From an uncultured Synergistia bacterium (GTDB lineage: Bacteria > Eremiobacterota > SpSt-956 > JAKJGF01), in assembly GCA_937888925.1 (NCBI GenBank), contig CALARM010000361.1, positions 1 through 9,206 on the forward strand: a stretch of DNA of 9,206 nucleotides. The letters run 5' to 3'. Below the pieces are notes generated by a model that saw only the letters and a list, made by a program, of their open reading frames with translations, did not search any database and was not told the origin of the DNA. The position numbers were made by a program, and so were the translations under genes. Every line of letters begins with the position of its first letter. Position 1 is the first letter of the stretch. Shown here piece after piece: positions 1 through 9,001 of this stretch.

Positions 1-1292
1 TCTTAAAATCTGAATATAAGGCACTGGCTCTTAAAAAATCTTTAGAGACTGAATTTGTTAAAAGTCAATTAAGCAATGATACTTCTGTTGCACCGTCTCT
101 CCCGTTAATCATAAAAGAGAAACAGTATAAAGAATTAAAGAAAACTTCTGAAATGTTATTTACTATTATGGATAAAACCATAGGATTGGTAATCGATAAC
201 CAGAGTACAGGGACATATATAAGAACATACAGGTCTCTCTGGGATGTTATAAAAAAAGAAGACACCTTTAATTCCAATAATATAATATTTGCCAGAATAA
301 GTGGAGTATATGATAAAAATGATACTATAAGGTATTTTGAGTTTACTTCCGAACCTTCCGATTTGTTACTTGCAGAAGAGCTTCTGGAAATATACGGTAA
401 TATTCAGGAAGTATGGGAAAGTCTCAGAGAGATTAATTTTTCTTTTTTTAATAAATCATGGAAGAGTTTTGCCAGATTTCTTCAGACATGTAATAAAAAA
501 ATCGATTTTAATAAAAAGAAAGATGTTATAGCAATTATTTCTTTTCAGGAAAACTATGGAGATAGAATATATTATAAATATTTGAAAAATAATGGCTTTA
601 ATGTATGTAAGGCAAAGCCTGATGAATTCATTTTTAATGGAACAGAGCTTACATATCGTGATTTGAAGATTAAACTTATTATCTTTCCTCAGCCTGTAAA
701 GAATATTACTTATTTCAATACCGATTTGAAACCTGTTATAGATGCGTTTACAGGAGGTAAGGTTTTTATAATTGATGCATTCAGATCTCTTCTGGCTACT
801 GAAAAATCCCTTTTTGCTTTAATTTCAGACAGAAAAAATTACTCTTTCTATAATGATAGAGAAGTAAAATTTATAAAAAAACATATTCCATGGACAAGAA
901 TTATAAGACATGAATGTACAACTGATATAGAAGGAAATGAAGTTGACTTAATAGATTATATAATTGCCAGTCAGGACAGGCTTGTTTTAAAAAAATCCAG
1001 TGATATTACGGGCGATCACCTGGGGCCTGCCTGTGATATGAATCCTATGGACTGGAAAACTCTTGTATCCTGGATTTTATCCTCTAAAGAACTCTGGGTT
1101 GCACAGGAAAAAATTGAATTTAATTCTTCTGAAAGATATGTTATTGGTGAAGACACTTTAAAATTAAAGAAAATTTTCTGGTGTGTACATCCTTATATAT
1201 TCAACGGTAAATTTCAGACATGTTACGGGAAAACATCTGATGAGCCTGTCGTTAATGCAGATGCAACAGAAACGTTAGTCGGATTTATATGA
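1..1292 (+). CDS. Circularly permuted ATP-grasp-like protein (5' end outside window)
   Basis: The frame is open from the first bases (codons from position 3), so the gene begins upstream; the first ATG at 153 is probably internal. About 429 residues are visible. The order of motifs matches the circularly permuted ATP-grasp family, relatives of glutathionylspermidine synthase: a pre-ATP-grasp segment with IRYFEF near nt 325, a helical middle, FIIDAFRSLLATEKSLFALI near nt 765-825, HIPWTRII near nt 880, RLVLKK at 978-995, ELWVAQEKIEF near nt 1090 and a terminal segment HPYIFNGKF ... VVNAD. The family joins a carboxylate to an amine using ATP; the substrate here is unknown. The nucleotide-binding loop after RLVLKK reads SSDITGDHLGP instead of the usual glycine-rich GG-x-G-V, and the usual Arg of the late RLS motif is Lys (YGKTS). 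It is therefore divergent and may have altered activity. It ends in TGA at 1290-1292, against the ribosome binding site of the phosphorylase gene. Family call fairly sure; function not known. Confidence 0.72.
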   Translation, partial: LKSEYKALALKKSLETEFVKSQLSNDTSVAPSLPLIIKEKQYKELKKTSEMLFTIMDKTIGLVIDNQSTGTYIRTYRSLWDVIKKEDTFNSNNIIFARISGVYDKNDTIRYFEFTSEPSDLLLAEELLEIYGNIQEVWESLREINFSFFNKSWKSFARFLQTCNKKIDFNKKKDVIAIISFQENYGDRIYYKYLKNNGFNVCKAKPDEFIFNGTELTYRDLKIKLIIFPQPVKNITYFNTDLKPVIDAFTGGKVFIIDAFRSLLATEKSLFALISDRKNYSFYNDREVKFIKKHIPWTRIIRHECTTDIEGNEVDLIDYIIASQDRLVLKKSSDITGDHLGPACDMNPMDWKTLVSWILSSKELWVAQEKIEFNSSERYVIGEDTLKLKKIFWCVHPYIFNGKFQTCYGKTSDEPVVNADATETLVGFI

Positions 1293-1300
1293 AGGGAGGA
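1291..1300 (+). promoter_or_regulatory. Ribosome binding site of the phosphorylase gene, overlapping upstream stop
   Basis: GAAGGGAGGA lies 6 nt before the ATG at 1307 and overlaps the TGA (1290-1292) of the ATP-grasp-like gene. It decides the start: the in-frame ATG at 1289 would overlap that stop but has no Shine-Dalgarno sequence, while the ATG at 1307 has a strong one. The arrangement implies translational coupling of the two genes. Confidence 0.8.
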
Positions 1301-1306
1301 CTTAAA

Positions 1307-3841
1307 ATGAGTAAAACCGATAAAAAGAAACCTGTAAAAAAAACCTGTTCCGGTGAAAAGCATGAAGGCAGAAAAAAATTATGGGAAATGATTGAAGATA
1401 CCTATCTTGCTTCAGATATTGAATCATTACAGAAATCTTTTGCGAATCATCTTGAATATTCTCAGGCCAAGACCAGATACAGTGCCACAGATTTTGACTG
1501 TTATAAGAGTCTCGCCTATTCCATAAGAGACAGGTTGATGGAAAAATGGAACGATACTCAGGAAGCTTATTATAACAGTAACGGGAAAAGAGTTTATTAT
1601 CTGTCTATGGAATTCCTTATGGGAAGGGCTCTCTGTAATAATCTGATAAATCTTGGTATTAAAGATGACTGTTATGAAGCTCTCTGTGAACTGGGATATA
1701 ATCTGGAAGAGCTCAGAGAGCTTGAACCTGATGCAGGACTCGGTAACGGAGGCCTCGGACGTCTTGCCGCATGTTTTCTTGATTCTATGGCTACCCTCCA
1801 GTTGCCGGGATGTGGTTATGGTATAAGATATGAATATGGTATATTCGAACAGAAGATAGAACATGGATTCCAGATAGAAAGGCCTGATAACTGGCTTCGC
1901 TTCGGTAATCCCTGGGAGATTGTCAGGCCTGAATATACTTACAATATAGAATTTTACGGCACAGTAAATGAAATGGGTGAATGGGTAAATACCAATAAAG
2001 TACTTGCAATAGCCTATGATACTCCTATAACAGGATATAAGAATGATACGGTAAACAACCTGAGGCTCTGGTCTTCAAAAGCTACTGAAGAATTTGCTCT
2101 TGAGTGTTTTAATAAAGGTGATTATATAAGAGCTGTACAGGAAAAAATAACGACAGAGAATATCTCCAAAGTTCTCTATCCGAAAGATGATATAGTGCCG
2201 GGGAAAGAACTGAGACTGAAGCAGGAATATTTCTTTGTTTCTGCAACATTGCAGGATATATTGAGACGGTACAGGGTAAATAATAAAGATTTCGACGATT
2301 TTTCTTCCAGATCTGCCATCCAATTAAATGACACCCACCCTGCCATAGCCATACCGGAATTCATGAGGTTACTTGTAGATAAAGAAGGAATGCCATGGGA
2401 TAAGGCCTGGGATTTATGTGTAAAAACCTTTGCCTATACAAACCATACCATTTTACCTGAAGCACTGGAAAAATGGCCTGTTGAACTGCTGGGAAAACTT
2501 CTTCCGAGACATCTTCAGATAATCTATGAGATAAACAGAAGATTCCTTGAGAAAATACAGGAACTTTATCCTGGAGACACAGACAGATTGACGAGAATGT
2601 CTATTATTGAAGAAACTCCTGTTAAATCTGTGAGAATGGCCTATCTCGCCATAGTAGGGAGCCATTCCATAAACGGTGTTGCTGCACTTCATACAGAGAT
2701 AATAAAAGATAAACTTTTCAGGGATTTCTATGACATATGGCCTGAAAAGTTTAATAATAAGACAAACGGCATAACTCAGAGGAGATGGTTGAAACTCTGT
2801 AATGTAAGACTTTCTGATTTGATTTCAAAACATATCGGTGAAGGATGGGTTACAGATTTATATGAACTAAAAAAACTTATGCCCCTTGCTGAGGATAAGA
2901 AATTCAGGGCAGAATGGAAAAAAGTAAAGGAAGAAAATAAAAAAGACCTTGCAGAATATATAAAGAAACATAATGGTATTGACATAAATATTAATTCTAT
3001 ATTTGACTGTCAGATTAAACGTCTCCATGAGTATAAGAGGCAGCTTTTAAATGTTCTTCATATAATTACATTATATAATAGAATAAAGTCGATTTTATCG
3101 CCTGCTGATTTTGTTCCCAGAACCTTTATATTCGGTGCAAAAGCTGCTCCCGGATATTATATGGCAAAGCTTATTATTAAACTCATAAACTCTGTGGCAC
3201 AGGTAGTAAACAATGATCCCGATGTGGGTGATAAAATTAAAGTGGTATTCCTTGAAAATTATGGAGTATCACTGGCTGAAAAAATATTCCCTGCATCAGA
3301 CCTTTCGGAACAGATTTCTACTGCCGGTATGGAAGCATCGGGGACAGGTAACATGAAATTTGCTCTGAACGGCGCTCTTACAATAGGGACTCTTGATGGT
3401 GCCAATGTGGAAATAAAAGAAGAAGTAGGGGCGGAAAATATCTTTATATTCGGCTTAAAAACCGAAGAAGTAAATAATCTCAGAGATACATATAAACCTG
3501 CAGATTATTATAACGGTAACAGTGAGTTAAAACAGGTAATAGATATGATTGGAGGAGGTTATTTTAACCCGGAAAACAGAGAGCTTTTTAAACCAATAGT
3601 GGAAGATCTTCTCTGGAAAGATTATTTTATGGTACTTGCCGATTATGCTTCCTATGTAGAATGTCAGGAACAGGTGAGCCTTACCTTTAAAAATCAGGAA
3701 GAATGGACGGAAAAATCTATTATAAATACTGCCTGTACCGGTAAATTTTCAAGTGACAGAACTATAAAGGAATATGCAGAAGAAATATGGCACGTAAAAC
3801 CTGTAAAACCGAAGAAAAGTTCTAATTACCGTAACAGATAA
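1307..3841 (+). CDS. glgP: Glycogen/alpha-glucan phosphorylase
   Basis: A cytoplasmic PLP-dependent GT35 enzyme that releases glucose-1-phosphate from the non-reducing ends of glycogen or maltodextrin using phosphate. The 844-residue product is full length for the family. Visible signatures are VYYLSMEFLMGRAL near the N terminus, EPDAGLGNGGLGRLAACF, GYGIRYEYGIFEQ, RLKQEYFFVSATLQDI, IQLNDTHPA, KTNGITQRRWL, and the PLP motif GMEASGTGNMKFALNG, whose Lys684 should form the Schiff base. The N terminus carries a short lysine-rich extension (KTDKKKPVKK). The start at 1307 is chosen for its ribosome binding site; a start at 1289 would add six residues. The gene is coupled to the upstream ATP-grasp-like gene and followed by an inverted-repeat element. 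No frameshift or missing catalytic residue was seen. Whether glycogen or maltodextrin is preferred cannot be told from sequence alone, so glgP and malP are both possible names. Confidence 0.96.
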   Translation: MSKTDKKKPVKKTCSGEKHEGRKKLWEMIEDTYLASDIESLQKSFANHLEYSQAKTRYSATDFDCYKSLAYSIRDRLMEKWNDTQEAYYNSNGKRVYYLSMEFLMGRALCNNLINLGIKDDCYEALCELGYNLEELRELEPDAGLGNGGLGRLAACFLDSMATLQLPGCGYGIRYEYGIFEQKIEHGFQIERPDNWLRFGNPWEIVRPEYTYNIEFYGTVNEMGEWVNTNKVLAIAYDTPITGYKNDTVNNLRLWSSKATEEFALECFNKGDYIRAVQEKITTENISKVLYPKDDIVPGKELRLKQEYFFVSATLQDILRRYRVNNKDFDDFSSRSAIQLNDTHPAIAIPEFMRLLVDKEGMPWDKAWDLCVKTFAYTNHTILPEALEKWPVELLGKLLPRHLQIIYEINRRFLEKIQELYPGDTDRLTRMSIIEETPVKSVRMAYLAIVGSHSINGVAALHTEIIKDKLFRDFYDIWPEKFNNKTNGITQRRWLKLCNVRLSDLISKHIGEGWVTDLYELKKLMPLAEDKKFRAEWKKVKEENKKDLAEYIKKHNGIDININSIFDCQIKRLHEYKRQLLNVLHIITLYNRIKSILSPADFVPRTFIFGAKAAPGYYMAKLIIKLINSVAQVVNNDPDVGDKIKVVFLENYGVSLAEKIFPASDLSEQISTAGMEASGTGNMKFALNGALTIGTLDGANVEIKEEVGAENIFIFGLKTEEVNNLRDTYKPADYYNGNSELKQVIDMIGGGYFNPENRELFKPIVEDLLWKDYFMVLADYASYVECQEQVSLTFKNQEEWTEKSIINTACTGKFSSDRTIKEYAEEIWHVKPVKPKKSSNYRNR

Positions 3842-4109: not shown

Positions 4110-5903
4110 GTGAACATTACATTAATTTTTCCACCTCACTGGGTGGTTCATCAACCATATTTGAGTCTTCCGTCTCTGACTGCTTACCTGAGAGAAAATG
4201 GTTATAATGTAATACAGAGAGATATAAATATAGAAAGTGCCGATGATTTATTCAGAACCGTTGTCTTAAAAGATGCCTATAAAAAACTTCAAAAAAAGTT
4301 GGAATATTTAAAGAATTTAAAGAATAGAACATCAGGGGAAGAAATTCTGTTAAATAATTTATCTTTTATGGAAGACAGAGATTATGCGGAATATACCAGA
4401 AATATCCTTCGTATGGTTAAATATTCAAAGGATGTAATGAGGGATAAAGACAAATTTTTTGATTTTCCTCTTTATCGTGACAGTATAAATGATATTTTAT
4501 TTGCCTATTATATACTGGGTATTCTTCATGAAACAAATATAGATTTTATGACCTTTTACAGGGAAGGATATCCCGGTACCAGCATAGAAGGTATAGTTAA
4601 ATATATTCATGATGAAGAAAACAATTATTATGCAGATTATTTCAGACATGTTACAATTCCTTCTTTACAAAAGAAACCGTCAGAACTCTATGGCATATCC
4701 GTATCAAGTCTTACCCAGATACTCCCCGGATTGACTCTTGCCGGTATGATAAAAAAGGCCATTCCTCAAGCCCATATCTGTATGGGAGGAAATATTTTTA
4801 CAAGAATTGCGGAAAAACTTGTTACTCCCTGCCCTCTGTTCGATTTTTTTGATTCTGTTATAATCTATGAAGGGGAAGTGGCATTACTTGAACTGGTAAA
4901 GGCACTGGAACATGGATATGGCTTTGAGAATATTTCAAATTTTATATACAGGGATAAACATGGCGAAATTATTCATAATAAAAATCTCTCTCTTCCTGAT
5001 ATAAATTCTCTTCCTGTGCCGGATTTTGACGGCCTTCCCCTGGAAAGGTATTTCTCTCCCTTTAACGTATTCCCTTTACTCACAGGGAGAGGATGTTACT
5101 GGAATAAATGCGCCTTCTGCAGGCATAAATCTATTTATGGAAATACTTATCGTGCAAGAAAAATAGAAAAAGTTATGGATGATATAGAAATACTCTGTAA
5201 AAAATACGGTGCTAAATATATTACTTTTTATGATGAAGCAATTCACCCTGTAAGATTAAAGAATATCATCGCTGAGATAATGAAAAGAAACCTGGATATT
5301 CGATGGGAAGGGACTCTGAGGGGGGAAAAGGAATTTGACAGGGAACTTGCATGCATGGCTTTTAAAGCAGGTGCCAGATTACTTTCCTTCGGGCTGGAAT
5401 CAGCATCTCCCAGAGTGTTAGACCTTATGTGCAAGGGTATTGACATCAATGTATTCAGGGAAGTGGTACGTTACAGCGCAGAAGCAGGCATATGGAACTA
5501 TGCCTCCTTTTTTACCGGATTTCCGACGGAAACAGAAGAAGAAGCTATGGAAACAGCAGATTTTATTCTGAAAAATCAGGATTTTATCCATTCAGTATCT
5601 CTGAATGTACCTTTCTTTGCTGTAGAAAATACCGATATAGATAAAAATCCTGAAAAATATTTTATTGAAAGCCTGACACCTATGGAAGGATGGGAACTTG
5701 CCGTAGGATATAATTATACTGTCACTGAAGGCATGTCTCAGAAGAAAGCCGGTGAAATGGCACTTGAAATATGCAATAAAATAAAACGGGATCATCGTCA
5801 GAGCAGCATATTCAGTTCCATGAACAGAGTCCATCAGATGCTCTATGCAGATCATTTCAATACAAATAATCTGGCTTCTGTAATCACGAAAGATTTTACC
5901 TGA
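4110..5903 (+). CDS. B12-binding domain radical SAM protein
   Basis: A probable cobalamin-dependent radical SAM enzyme of 597 residues; such enzymes often perform methylations or other modifications at unactivated carbons. The N-terminal strand NITLIFPPHW and LPSLTAYLRENGYNV begin a B12-binding-like fold. It is split by a charged helical insertion of about 140 residues and resumes at SELYGISVSSLTQ (from about residue 190), MGGN (225-228) and EGE (254-256). There is no DxHxxG motif, which many members lack. The [4Fe-4S] motif is C329-YWNK-C334-AF-C337, spaced CX4CX2C instead of CX3CX2C. Later radical SAM features are FGLESASPRVLDLM and TGFPTETEEEAMET. The start at GTG 4110 has AGGCAGG 9 nt upstream and begins exactly at the family's first strand; the frame is open from a GTG at 4026, which lacks a ribosome binding site. 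The substrate is unknown. Proximity to a LanM gene hints at peptide modification, but lipid or other substrates are equally possible. Confidence 0.88.
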   Translation: MNITLIFPPHWVVHQPYLSLPSLTAYLRENGYNVIQRDINIESADDLFRTVVLKDAYKKLQKKLEYLKNLKNRTSGEEILLNNLSFMEDRDYAEYTRNILRMVKYSKDVMRDKDKFFDFPLYRDSINDILFAYYILGILHETNIDFMTFYREGYPGTSIEGIVKYIHDEENNYYADYFRHVTIPSLQKKPSELYGISVSSLTQILPGLTLAGMIKKAIPQAHICMGGNIFTRIAEKLVTPCPLFDFFDSVIIYEGEVALLELVKALEHGYGFENISNFIYRDKHGEIIHNKNLSLPDINSLPVPDFDGLPLERYFSPFNVFPLLTGRGCYWNKCAFCRHKSIYGNTYRARKIEKVMDDIEILCKKYGAKYITFYDEAIHPVRLKNIIAEIMKRNLDIRWEGTLRGEKEFDRELACMAFKAGARLLSFGLESASPRVLDLMCKGIDINVFREVVRYSAEAGIWNYASFFTGFPTETEEEAMETADFILKNQDFIHSVSLNVPFFAVENTDIDKNPEKYFIESLTPMEGWELAVGYNYTVTEGMSQKKAGEMALEICNKIKRDHRQSSIFSSMNRVHQMLYADHFNTNNLASVITKDFT

Positions 5904-5916
5904 ACTTTTTGAGATT

Positions 5917-5945
5917 TTGACTATGGAAGTTTTTTGCTTTATAAT
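5917..5945 (+). promoter_or_regulatory. Near-consensus sigma-70-type promoter before the selenoprotein gene
   Basis: TTGACT (5917-5922), a 17-nt spacer, then TATAAT (5940-5945): five of six bases at -35, six of six at -10 and ideal spacing. Transcription would start near 5951-5953, giving a leader of only about 15-17 nt with the Shine-Dalgarno sequence at its very 5' end. It implies that the lipoprotein gene can be transcribed independently of the radical SAM gene ending at 5903. Confidence 0.7.
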
Positions 5946-5952
5946 CTAAAAG

Positions 5953-5962
5953 AAAGGAGTGA
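5953..5962 (+). promoter_or_regulatory. Ribosome binding site of the selenoprotein gene
   Basis: AAAGGAGTGA is a strong Shine-Dalgarno sequence 5 nt before the ATG at 5968 and fixes the start of the lipoprotein. No comparable site lies before the ATG at 6193, which argues that 6193-6480 is not a separate gene but the continuation past the in-frame TGA. Confidence 0.85.
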
Positions 5963-5967
5963 TTTAA

Positions 5968-6480
5968 ATGCATTATAAAACAATCTGCTGCCTTATGGTA
6001 TTGATGGCATTATTTTTTTCAGGCTGTTTTTGTACAGGAAGCGATAACACTTCAGGTATAAAAGAAGGCTCTATCGCCCCCGGATTTAGCCTTAAAGATA
6101 CAGATGGAAAAACCTTTGACTCTGGAAGATTAAAAGGGAAAGTGCTATTTCTTAATTTCTGGCGCTCAGGTTGAGGGGCCTGTGTAACGGAGATGCCTCA
6201 GTTGGAGGCATTACACAATAAGTATAAAGATAAAAAATTCTTATTGCTTGCAATAAATACGTCTGAAAGTTCATCAGAAATTAAGGATTTTATGACTGCC
6301 AATAAATGTACCTTCCCGGCTCTTGTGGCGGAAAATACCGATGTATCGCAAAAATATGAAATCAAATATGTACCTACCAGTTTTATTGTAAATAAATCCG
6401 GTATAGTAAAACATATGAGTGTAGGTGCAAGAGAATCCGATAAATGGGATGGCATTATAGAAAAGCTTCTGGCAGAGTAA
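5968..6480 (+). CDS. Selenocysteine-containing TlpA/thioredoxin-like lipoprotein
   Basis: I read one 170-residue protein through an in-frame TGA at 6172-6174 (residue 69). The N terminus is a lipoprotein signal: basic start, hydrophobic stretch, lipobox FSGC with Cys20. The mature part has the TlpA/AhpC-TSA layout: GSIAPGFSLKDTDGKTF, then KGKVLFLNFWRSG-U-GACVTEMPQLEAL, FLLLAINTSES and the cis-proline loop YVPTSFIV. The expected WxxxCxxC motif appears as W65-RSG-U69-GA-C72, so TGA sits exactly at the nucleophilic cysteine, giving UxxC. Both halves are in the same frame (225 nt between the ATGs at 5968 and 6193), and homology continues directly across the TGA. A bacterial SECIS-like hairpin follows at the right distance. 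The protein is probably membrane-anchored on the outer face of the cytoplasmic membrane (or in the periplasm) and acts as a thiol/selenol reductant or peroxidase-like enzyme. The alternative is a pseudogene from a Cys-to-stop mutation, which the hairpin and the intact downstream half make unlikely. Confidence 0.88.
6181..6217 (+). promoter_or_regulatory. Bacterial SECIS-like hairpin directing UGA recoding
   Basis: Downstream of the TGA at 6172-6174, the RNA can pair TGTGTA (6181-6186) with TACACA (6212-6217) and ATGCCTC (6193-6199) with GAGGCAT (6205-6211), with a 6-nt 5' bulge (6187-6192) and the apical loop AGTTG (6200-6204). The upper stem is a perfect 7 bp. The loop begins 25 nt after the TGA and has G at its second position. 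This fits what is known of bacterial SECIS elements: a hairpin within the coding region just after UGA, and a guanosine at the start of a small loop for SelB binding. Pairing was found by eye; no folding energy was computed. Confidence 0.82.
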
Positions 6481-6562
6481 ATTTTTTTCGGAGATATTTT
6501 AGCTGAATCTTCAAGCAGAAAAACAGGTAATATTTTCATTCCTGTAATGAACATAGAGACAT

Positions 6563-9001
6563 ATGAAATTTACAAACAGAGAAATACTTGATTTTATTGA
6601 GAAAACAGCCTTCCTTCATGAAAGAATAAATGGAGATTTCATTCCCTCTTCTATGGAAGATGAAGAACAAATAGACTCTTATATAAAGAGATGGAAAGAA
6701 ATTTCTGCTGAAAATGATGACCTGTCTTTTCAGAGAAGACTTTCCTTTAATAATATTGATATAGATAAAGTAAGGCCTGTAATGGGAAAAATCACTTTCC
6801 CCGTTAGAGACAAAATTCCTTTCTGGTGTGACATACTGAAGAAGATTATTAAGAGAAAGGCAGTTTCTCTGAAAAAAATCAGGTCGGAAAAGGTCTATCT
6901 CTGTGGAAATCTCGCTTTTGACGAATTTTTTATTCCTTTTGTAATGATTGCTATGGAAGAACTTGCCGGGACAACAGGTGACTCATACCATGTTCTTACT
7001 GGAAAAGCTTCTGTCATGGTGGAATATAATCTCCTTTATTCTCTGAATATGTTATGCGTAAAATCCGTATATGAAGCATTCACGGTATTTCTTTCGGAAC
7101 AGGAATCCTCATCGAAACATGGTCTATATTACGATCATTTTATAAGAAAACATTTGAAAAATTCTTTTAAGGATTTTTTTATGACCTACCCTGTCTCCGG
7201 TCGACTTGTTTCTACATTTATACAACTATGGGTAGAGTCTTTGAGTGAATTTTTTCTGAGATTTAAGAAGGATTTACCTGAAATTTCAGAAGTTTTTTAT
7301 AAAGATAATAACCCCGGATATATTACAGATTTAAAAATTGGACTTTCTGACAGGCATAACGGAGGAAGAACAGTTATAGCTATTACCTTCTCTTCCGGAT
7401 TAAAACTTGTCTATAAGCCCCGGAGTATGTCTCTGGATTGTTCTTATATGAAATTACTTTCCTGGTTCAACGAAAAATCCGGTATAACTGATTTTAAATT
7501 CTTTAAAATACTGGATAGAGGAGATTACGGATGGGCGGAATTTATAGAATATATGCCCTGCAAAACAGAAGAAGAGGGAAGACAATATTACAGAAGGACA
7601 GGTCATCTTCTCTGTCTGTTATATGTCCTTGGAAGCACTGACTGTCATATGGAAAACCTGATTGCCTGCGGAGAGTATCCTGTTTTTATAGATTTAGAAA
7701 CTCTTATGGAGCCGGAAATGAGATTTTTCGGGAAAGAAAAATATTCAAAAAGAGTCAGATTTCAGGCACATAAAGAATTTTTCTCGTCAGTAATAAAGAC
7801 AGGTATTCTTCCAAGGTGGACTTTTGAACTGGAAAAAAGACCTTATGATGTGAGTGTTCTCGGCAGCATCGGCGATCATGGCAGACCTTTTCTCAAAGAA
7901 ACATGGAAAAATTTAAAGACCGATTCTATACAAACATATATAGAAGATGCAGAATTCAGGCAGTGTCAGAATGTTCCTTTTCTTGACGGTACCCTGCTCT
8001 ATCCCTTTGAATATAAAGAATTTATTCTGGAAGGCTTCAGAGATTTTTATTCATTTCTTATAAGATACAGAGACGATTTACTTTCTTCAGATTCCCCTCT
8101 GAAAGAACTTAAAAATAAACCTGTAAGATTTTTTTTCCGCTTTACAGGTGACTATGGCATTATGATAAGACAGGTCATGGAACCTTCATTGCTGCGAGAT
8201 CCTCTTATGTGGAGTATTACATTGGATGGACTGGCACATAAAAAGGATGGAAAACACCTCTGGCCCGTTATTAAATCAGAGATTTTAAGCCTCGAACAGT
8301 TAGATATACCTTCTATAACCTGTCTCTCAGACAGTAAGGATCTTTATCCGGGGGAGGGAGAAAAAATAGAAAATTTCTTTCATAGCTCCGGTTATGATAA
8401 TGTTATAAACCGTATAAAAAAACTTGATTCAAAAGATATGGAAAGACAGACTCTGCTTATATGCTCGTCTCTCTATGCAAGGACTGTAATACCTTCCGAA
8501 GATTTTGAAGATTATAATTTTGATGAAAAAACTCATCATGATAATCTGCTTATAGGAAAAAAACTTCATGTAGCAGATTTTAGAGGCGTGGAGCGAAGTC
8601 TTGATGATGATTTTCTGATAGGACAGAGACTTAAGGAACATGCTATTTCTTTTGGTGATGCAGGTGTAAGCTGGACCTGTTATAAATATGTCAGCACAAT
8701 AAACAGATTTCAATTAGAACCTGCAGATTACAGCCTTCATAACGGTATATGCGGTATTGCCCTTTTCATGTCAGCTCTTGAGAATATTCAGAAAAAAGGC
8801 ATATATACAGAAACAGTTCTCTCCGCTCTAAAACCAGTTTTTACCGACCTTGACGATAAGGATTTTTCTGATCTTCTTCTGGAAGAATCCGGTGTAGAAG
8901 GTATAAAGTCTATTGTTTACACTCTTAATTCTATAAGTCACTTTCTGGATATGCCTTTTATTATGGATTATGCAAAAAAGGCTGAACTTTTAATAAAATA
9001 G
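6563..9001 (+). CDS. LanM-type lanthipeptide dehydratase with truncated cyclase domain
   Basis: Class II lanthipeptide synthetases phosphorylate and dehydrate Ser/Thr of a precursor peptide, then close thioether rings with a C-terminal LanC domain. The dehydration domain here is intact: SDRHNGG (D263, H265), VYKPR (K285), STDCHMENLIA (D360, H362, N365), FIDLETLMEP (D377, E379), and R522 and R526-F-T528 in the elimination region. These align, by spacing from memory, with the catalytic residues described for CylM. A LanC-like start, LHNGICGIALFMSALE, appears at about residue 725, followed by GVEGIKSIVYTLNSI, but the protein ends in TAG at residue 812, where LanM proteins usually run to about 1000. 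The zinc-ligand motifs (Cys and Cys-His) are absent, and the DNA downstream encodes another gene on the opposite strand. The ATG at 6563 is the only plausible start (in-frame TAG at 6554-6556) and has only a weak AGAGA site. The substrate peptide is not visible. Call sure for the dehydratase. Confidence 0.93.
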   Translation: MKFTNREILDFIEKTAFLHERINGDFIPSSMEDEEQIDSYIKRWKEISAENDDLSFQRRLSFNNIDIDKVRPVMGKITFPVRDKIPFWCDILKKIIKRKAVSLKKIRSEKVYLCGNLAFDEFFIPFVMIAMEELAGTTGDSYHVLTGKASVMVEYNLLYSLNMLCVKSVYEAFTVFLSEQESSSKHGLYYDHFIRKHLKNSFKDFFMTYPVSGRLVSTFIQLWVESLSEFFLRFKKDLPEISEVFYKDNNPGYITDLKIGLSDRHNGGRTVIAITFSSGLKLVYKPRSMSLDCSYMKLLSWFNEKSGITDFKFFKILDRGDYGWAEFIEYMPCKTEEEGRQYYRRTGHLLCLLYVLGSTDCHMENLIACGEYPVFIDLETLMEPEMRFFGKEKYSKRVRFQAHKEFFSSVIKTGILPRWTFELEKRPYDVSVLGSIGDHGRPFLKETWKNLKTDSIQTYIEDAEFRQCQNVPFLDGTLLYPFEYKEFILEGFRDFYSFLIRYRDDLLSSDSPLKELKNKPVRFFFRFTGDYGIMIRQVMEPSLLRDPLMWSITLDGLAHKKDGKHLWPVIKSEILSLEQLDIPSITCLSDSKDLYPGEGEKIENFFHSSGYDNVINRIKKLDSKDMERQTLLICSSLYARTVIPSEDFEDYNFDEKTHHDNLLIGKKLHVADFRGVERSLDDDFLIGQRLKEHAISFGDAGVSWTCYKYVSTINRFQLEPADYSLHNGICGIALFMSALENIQKKGIYTETVLSALKPVFTDLDDKDFSDLLLEESGVEGIKSIVYTLNSISHFLDMPFIMDYAKKAELLIK

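Follow-up and report, generated by a model that had tools for sequence, protein, structure and literature searches.

Gene organization of the locus

The window analyzed here, meaning the whole stretch of 9,206 nt, carries on its + strand, at positions 5968..6480, a gene for a predicted ResA/TlpA-like lipoprotein of 170 residues in which an in-frame TGA (6172..6174, + strand) is the predicted codon for selenocysteine 69 (U69). The gene was assigned by translation, Pfam matches, homologs, and fold, and the codon by its homolog column and by the upstream halves of relatives, which end one residue before it. The next gene on the + strand encodes a LanM (6563-9001) and starts 82 nt downstream, in agreement with the preliminary description of this DNA, which had placed the gene beside LanM.

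Upstream on the same strand, an ORF cut by the window edge (3-1292, 429 residues) has no confident domain; it gave no significant Pfam or NCBIfam match and only weak hints of RepA_N (E 0.044) and CP_ATPgrasp_2 (E 0.11). It is followed by a glycogen/starch phosphorylase (1289-3841), whose best named relative, 80% identical, is from bacterium ADurb.Bin363, listed as unclassified in the NCBI taxonomy; no paper on this bacterium was found in the literature searched. The third + strand gene encodes a B12-type radical SAM protein (4110-5903, the start being taken as 4110). Its top two NCBIfam matches are families of P-methyltransferases and of RiPP-maturation C-methyltransferases, and all 22 of its NCBIfam matches fell far under their cut-offs. 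Between the phosphorylase and radical SAM genes lies an imperfect inverted repeat (3858-3896/3962-4000) with 39-nt arms that are 85% complementary and 65 nt apart. For the segment 3856-4002 the folding energy is −61.3 kcal/mol (z −10.09); Rfam, at its gathering threshold, had nothing matching the repeat, and the 21-nt core of its arm had no exact match in viral contigs.

Of the 932 positions in the LanM model, the LanM covers just 1-677, and of the 350 in the LanC-like domain just 2-74. The protein is thus C-terminally truncated, with the cyclase domain mostly missing, and the frame past its TAG holds just 43 open codons. A partial response regulator occupies the − strand at the window end. 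No tRNA was found within the 9,206-nt window.

A consensus scan located a promoter-like site, TTGACT-17-TATAAT, at 5917..5945 (+ strand, 11/12 matches); the start codon of the predicted selenoprotein gene follows after 22 nt. The same scan of 5880-6600 returned four sites against a shuffle mean of 3.1, so that the site is only suggestive of a real promoter. With the LanM start only 82 nt away and a search of 5880-6600 giving no terminator-like site on the + strand, co-transcription of the two genes is possible.

A single reading frame interrupted by TGA

The ATG at 5968, the TGA at 6172-6174 and the ORF 6193-6480 all share one frame, and the next stop, TAA at 6478-6480, lies 101 codons on. The earlier claim that the ORFs 5968-6174 and from 6193 share one frame, open beyond the TGA as far as this TAA, is therefore correct. 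The searched protein database gave the protein only as two halves. GC3 is 0.324 in the upstream and 0.327 in the downstream half, and by neighbor codon usage the shared frame outscores the other two across each half (5968-6171 and 6175-6477), but not within the six codons 6175-6192 taken by themselves. The 95-residue downstream ORF proposed by the gene caller (6193..6480, + strand) begins with an ATG that lies within a hairpin stem and is directly abutted by GGAG, an arrangement that by the spacing rule presumably leaves no usable ribosome-binding distance.

Elsewhere in the window TGA behaves as an ordinary stop. The two neighboring genes that end in TGA have open run-ons of merely 5 and 2 codons, and no in-frame TGA occurs in the 2,688 sense codons of four neighbors, the first of which is cut by the window edge. 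Genome-wide TGA reassignment was rejected on the behavior of these neighboring stops. Given the short run-ons of the TGA-ending neighbors and the break shared by relatives described below, the open frame beyond 6172-6174 is more than chance.

The TGA occupies the position of the nucleophilic cysteine

Searched against Pfam, the read-through protein matched Redoxin (PF08534, E 6.8e-24) over residues 32-156 and AhpC-TSA over residues 34-150, with scores of 84.8 bits (cut-off 26.6) and 82.5 bits (cut-off 26), respectively; both matches span the TGA. The alignment with 11 full-length homologs (P0005-P0015) puts the UGA in the column of the first cysteine of CxxC. Cysteine at this column of the homologs had been set beforehand as the check on the reading, and all 11 have it, which upholds the earlier claim that the TGA replaces the first cysteine of the motif. 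The second, resolving cysteine of the UGAC motif, Cys72 (6181..6183, + strand), is likewise cysteine in 11/11. The complete active-site motif reads W65-R-S-G-U69-G-A-C72.

Two further residues align with ResA. E75 stands opposite the ResA glutamate three residues past the second cysteine, which is taken to be the E80 named in the PDB titles, and Pro136, in a VPT segment, aligns with the LPT of ResA, whose proline we take to be the cis-Pro of the ResA cis-Pro loop. The Redoxin match over 32-156 bears out the earlier statement that thioredoxin-fold homology continues past the TGA.

A scan of the genome_contigs collection gave one locus, 30% identical, in a Chitinophaga MAG, with WCGPC where the window has GUGAC. 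No orthologue DNA was found in viral_contigs, either by protein or by a degenerate pattern across the UGA; phage records gave 14 matches, all below 60% identity, and a plasmid search in near mode gave none.

Predicted fold and membrane anchoring

An AlphaFold model built with 19 sequences had a mean pLDDT of 85.8, with values below 50 at residues 15-28, and shows a helix from residue 70, right after U69. The best PDB matches in Foldseek were ResA-type (1su9, E 8.2e-16), with TM scores of ∼0.75 when normalized to the query and as high as 0.93 when normalized to target length. ResA was also the best match among solved structures by sequence. The Pfam domain score and the ResA-like fold place the protein in the TlpA/ResA-like superfamily. 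In NCBIfam, searched with U written as Cys, the ResA model NF002854 was the best match, at 111.3 bits against a cut-off of 170, and by this model the protein is ResA-like rather than ResA itself. The preliminary description had called the protein TlpA-like; the ResA/TlpA-type domain stands, but the closest characterized relative by both sequence and fold is ResA, not TlpA.

A lipobox-like sequence, F17-S18-G19-C20 (6016..6027, + strand), was recognized by eye, and the relatives P0138 and P0139 have LSGC, also by eye.

The break is conserved in relatives

Database searches recovered the two halves of the protein from other sources as well. The read-through search returned 14 proteins, three of which are 95-residue downstream halves beginning at the same methionine: the window's own (P0002) and those of relatives P0003 (88% identical) and P0004 (71%). 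Searching with the upstream half returned the window's own protein, given a later start (P0137), plus three relatives (P0136, 97% identical; P0139, 84% over 75% of the query; P0138, 72%), and all four end in NFWRSG, whose glycine directly precedes the UGA. Leaving aside P0137 and P0002, the same break is thus present at the protein level in 3/3 upstream and 2/2 downstream halves of relatives. The relatives' halves P0138 and P0004 each match the domain separately.

P0003 and P0139 each come from one 1,400-base contig, which is probably shared. At least two lineages besides the window's own thus have the break. The stop of the relatives is presumably TGA. The first 16 residues of the three downstream halves are identical, and the 3′ part of the hairpin described next codes for about the first eight; this identity fits a constraint on the RNA and equally one on the protein.

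A SECIS-like hairpin follows the TGA

A bSECIS-like element lies at 6181..6217 (+ strand). It consists of a lower stem (6181-6186/6212-6217), a 5′ bulge (6187-6192), an upper stem (6193-6199/6205-6211), and the loop AGUUG (6200-6204), and the layout of lower stem and bulge is one that we take to resemble the Escherichia coli fdhF element. The bacterial SECIS model, as given in the passage on it in PMC13188914, has a loop of 3-9 nt, a stem of 4-16 bp, a G in the first two loop positions, a distance of 16-37 nt from the UGA, and a minimum free energy of −7.5 or lower. The hairpin 6192-6199/6205-6212 agrees with each of these values (eight pairs closing a 5-nt loop whose second position is G, a spacing of 25 nt to the UGA, −10.9 kcal/mol). 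It lacks the N1-N2 loop pair of the commonest SECIS pattern published in that passage (PMC13188914).

We scanned the window with this model, allowing ungapped stems only and leaving out the last 80 positions. On the + strand, 1/201 TGA triplets in any frame passed, namely 6172-6174 itself, and on the − strand 2/130; among all positions, 44/9,126 (+) and 89/9,126 (−) passed. Stems at least as stable were seen from 22 + strand positions, the same number as the 22 spacings from which this one hairpin would be seen, and from none on the − strand. When the region was recoded synonymously with neighbor codon usage and the protein fixed, 519 of 20,000 recodings passed the model and 54 of 20,000 were at least as stable. 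Among the codons of the region are some that are rare in the neighbors (ACG, 9/132; TTG, 19/260; and GAG, 30/209, twice).

Folding of the hairpin alone (6190-6214) gave −11.9 kcal/mol with z −5.07. The 54-nt stretch 6172-6225 adds the lower stem and the 6-nt bulge (−15.1 kcal/mol, z −1.75), and in the 66-nt stretch 6165-6230 (z −2.13) the upper stem is kept and the lower stem 6181-6186/6212-6217 is not formed. The folds of the longer stretches are thus less striking against shuffles than that of the hairpin alone. Rfam gave no match on the window at the gathering threshold.

Discussion

Taken together, our data indicate that 5968-6480 is very probably one gene for a ResA/TlpA-type, lipid-anchored thioredoxin-fold selenoprotein in which UGA is read as selenocysteine. 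The preliminary description had proposed such a protein, with selenocysteine first in UxxC, and this is the best-supported reading. Beyond the homolog column, it is favored by the break shared with relatives, by the hairpin, and by the use of TGA as an ordinary stop in two neighbors. The product would be a secreted thiol-disulfide oxidoreductase. Selenocysteine would be inserted at 6172-6174 by SelB and tRNA-Sec, helped by the SECIS hairpin within the coding sequence (6181-6217), and the protein would then be exported and lipidated at Cys20. In catalysis the U69 selenol may attack disulfides of target proteins and C72 resolve the resulting selenenylsulfide, with E75 presumably equivalent to Glu80 of ResA and Pro136 to its cis-Pro loop.

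We considered whether the gene might instead be a decaying pseudogene, a once ordinary CxxC protein gene that recently acquired its TGA by nonsense mutation. A single substitution turns TGT or TGC into TGA, but relatives of 71-88% identity, whose halves are intact, are interrupted at this very position, the break falls on the codon where selenocysteine would make sense, the frame has no other stop, and there is a SECIS-like hairpin with codons rare in the neighbors. This explanation is very unlikely, and it is nevertheless the one that survives best. Reading of the TGA as some other amino acid, through genome-wide recoding or plain stop-codon read-through, would also account for the open frame; the position is that of the nucleophilic cysteine of the homologs, and the run-ons of 5 and 2 codons and the absence of in-frame TGA from the neighbors' 2,688 codons speak against it, leaving it a still smaller chance.

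In the protein database the halves are listed as separate predicted proteins, which would be a lipopeptide of 68 residues and a redoxin fragment of 95. Each half, in the relatives P0138 and P0004 as well, is nevertheless a piece of one domain, and the second has neither the nucleophile nor a spaced ribosome-binding site and would start inside the hairpin stem, so that we give this possibility even less weight. A sequencing or assembly error has a negligible probability: an isolated error at the TGA is unlikely because distinct relatives show the same break, and the cluster of the window's downstream half comprises four member sequences on eight contigs.

The selenoprotein reading sets the protein beside several known systems. 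It shares with the ResA/TlpA-type oxidoreductases (NF002854; PDB entries 1st9 and 1su9) the fold, the aligned CxxC position, the active-site glutamate, the proline of the cis-Pro loop, and membrane or lipid anchoring, here a prediction, and differs from them in having selenocysteine for the first cysteine. With the ResA-like WAxxUGC proteins (NF041054) and the UGC-containing TlpA family it has in common a ResA-like domain and, by the motif in the name, selenocysteine four residues past tryptophan. In contrast to the UGC of the 354-position NF041054 model, its motif is UGAC, and its score of 48.2 bits against a cut-off of 300 places it outside that family. Etrx2, an exposed pneumococcal thioredoxin and by title a lipoprotein (PDB entries 4hqz and 2yp6), has the same fold but ranks below ResA in Foldseek and lacks selenocysteine; the likeness is one of sequence and fold only.

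Selenocysteine in thioredoxin-like families was described as known, rightly so, as UxxC members have been catalogued in sections of PMC2398784, PMC1088965, and PMC13188914. Compared by description only, the protein resembles the UxxC selenoproteins of the thioredoxin/peroxiredoxin-like superfamily in carrying UxxC in the same domains (sections of PMC2398784, PMC1088965, PMC9312934, and PMC13188914). Those of PMC2398784 list 321 UxxC sequences for Trx-like 1 (COG0526), 225 for Prx-like 1 (pfam00578), and 68 for Prx-like 3 (pfam08534, with a weak E-value), those of PMC1088965 four thiol-disulfide isomerase-like ones, and those of PMC13188914 the redoxin family PF08534 and cd02966 (thiol-disulfide isomerase-like), the same families appearing in PMC9312934. 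Neither lipoprotein nor periplasm comes up in the texts of PMC13188914, nor does periplasm in PMC2398784. As such proteins have been catalogued since 2005-2008, ours adds an example and no new class. In the literature searched we found no direct account of a ResA-type selenoprotein, no paper on Eremiobacterota and selenocysteine, and, by fixed phrases, none on lipoprotein, periplasmic, or membrane-anchored selenoproteins; among the papers returned for lanthipeptide with selenoprotein, none had such a link as its subject, judging by title and abstract opening.

According to the passage on them in PMC2397514, TlpA and ResA are bacterial disulfide reductases that are anchored in the membrane and have an important part in the maturation of cytochrome c. 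By analogy, the likeliest role of the protein would be extracytoplasmic disulfide reduction, as for ResA in cytochrome c maturation. We consider it improbable that the selenoprotein acts together with the upstream radical SAM protein and the downstream truncated LanM, serving an uncultured lineage as the extracytoplasmic selenol reductase dedicated to a pathway of peptide modification, and any functional link to LanM is speculation; if true, this pathway would tie selenocysteine to lanthipeptide-type biosynthesis.

All selenoprotein genes found in PMC1088965 had, according to that paper, been misannotated, either truncated or missed. The database halves of the present protein are without its catalytic residue. 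The picture of what selenoproteins do is unchanged by our findings. They point to a selenocysteine-dependent, probably lipid-anchored ResA-like reductase in an unclassified bacterial lineage, which, if its sel genes are confirmed, would join the map of selenocysteine users.
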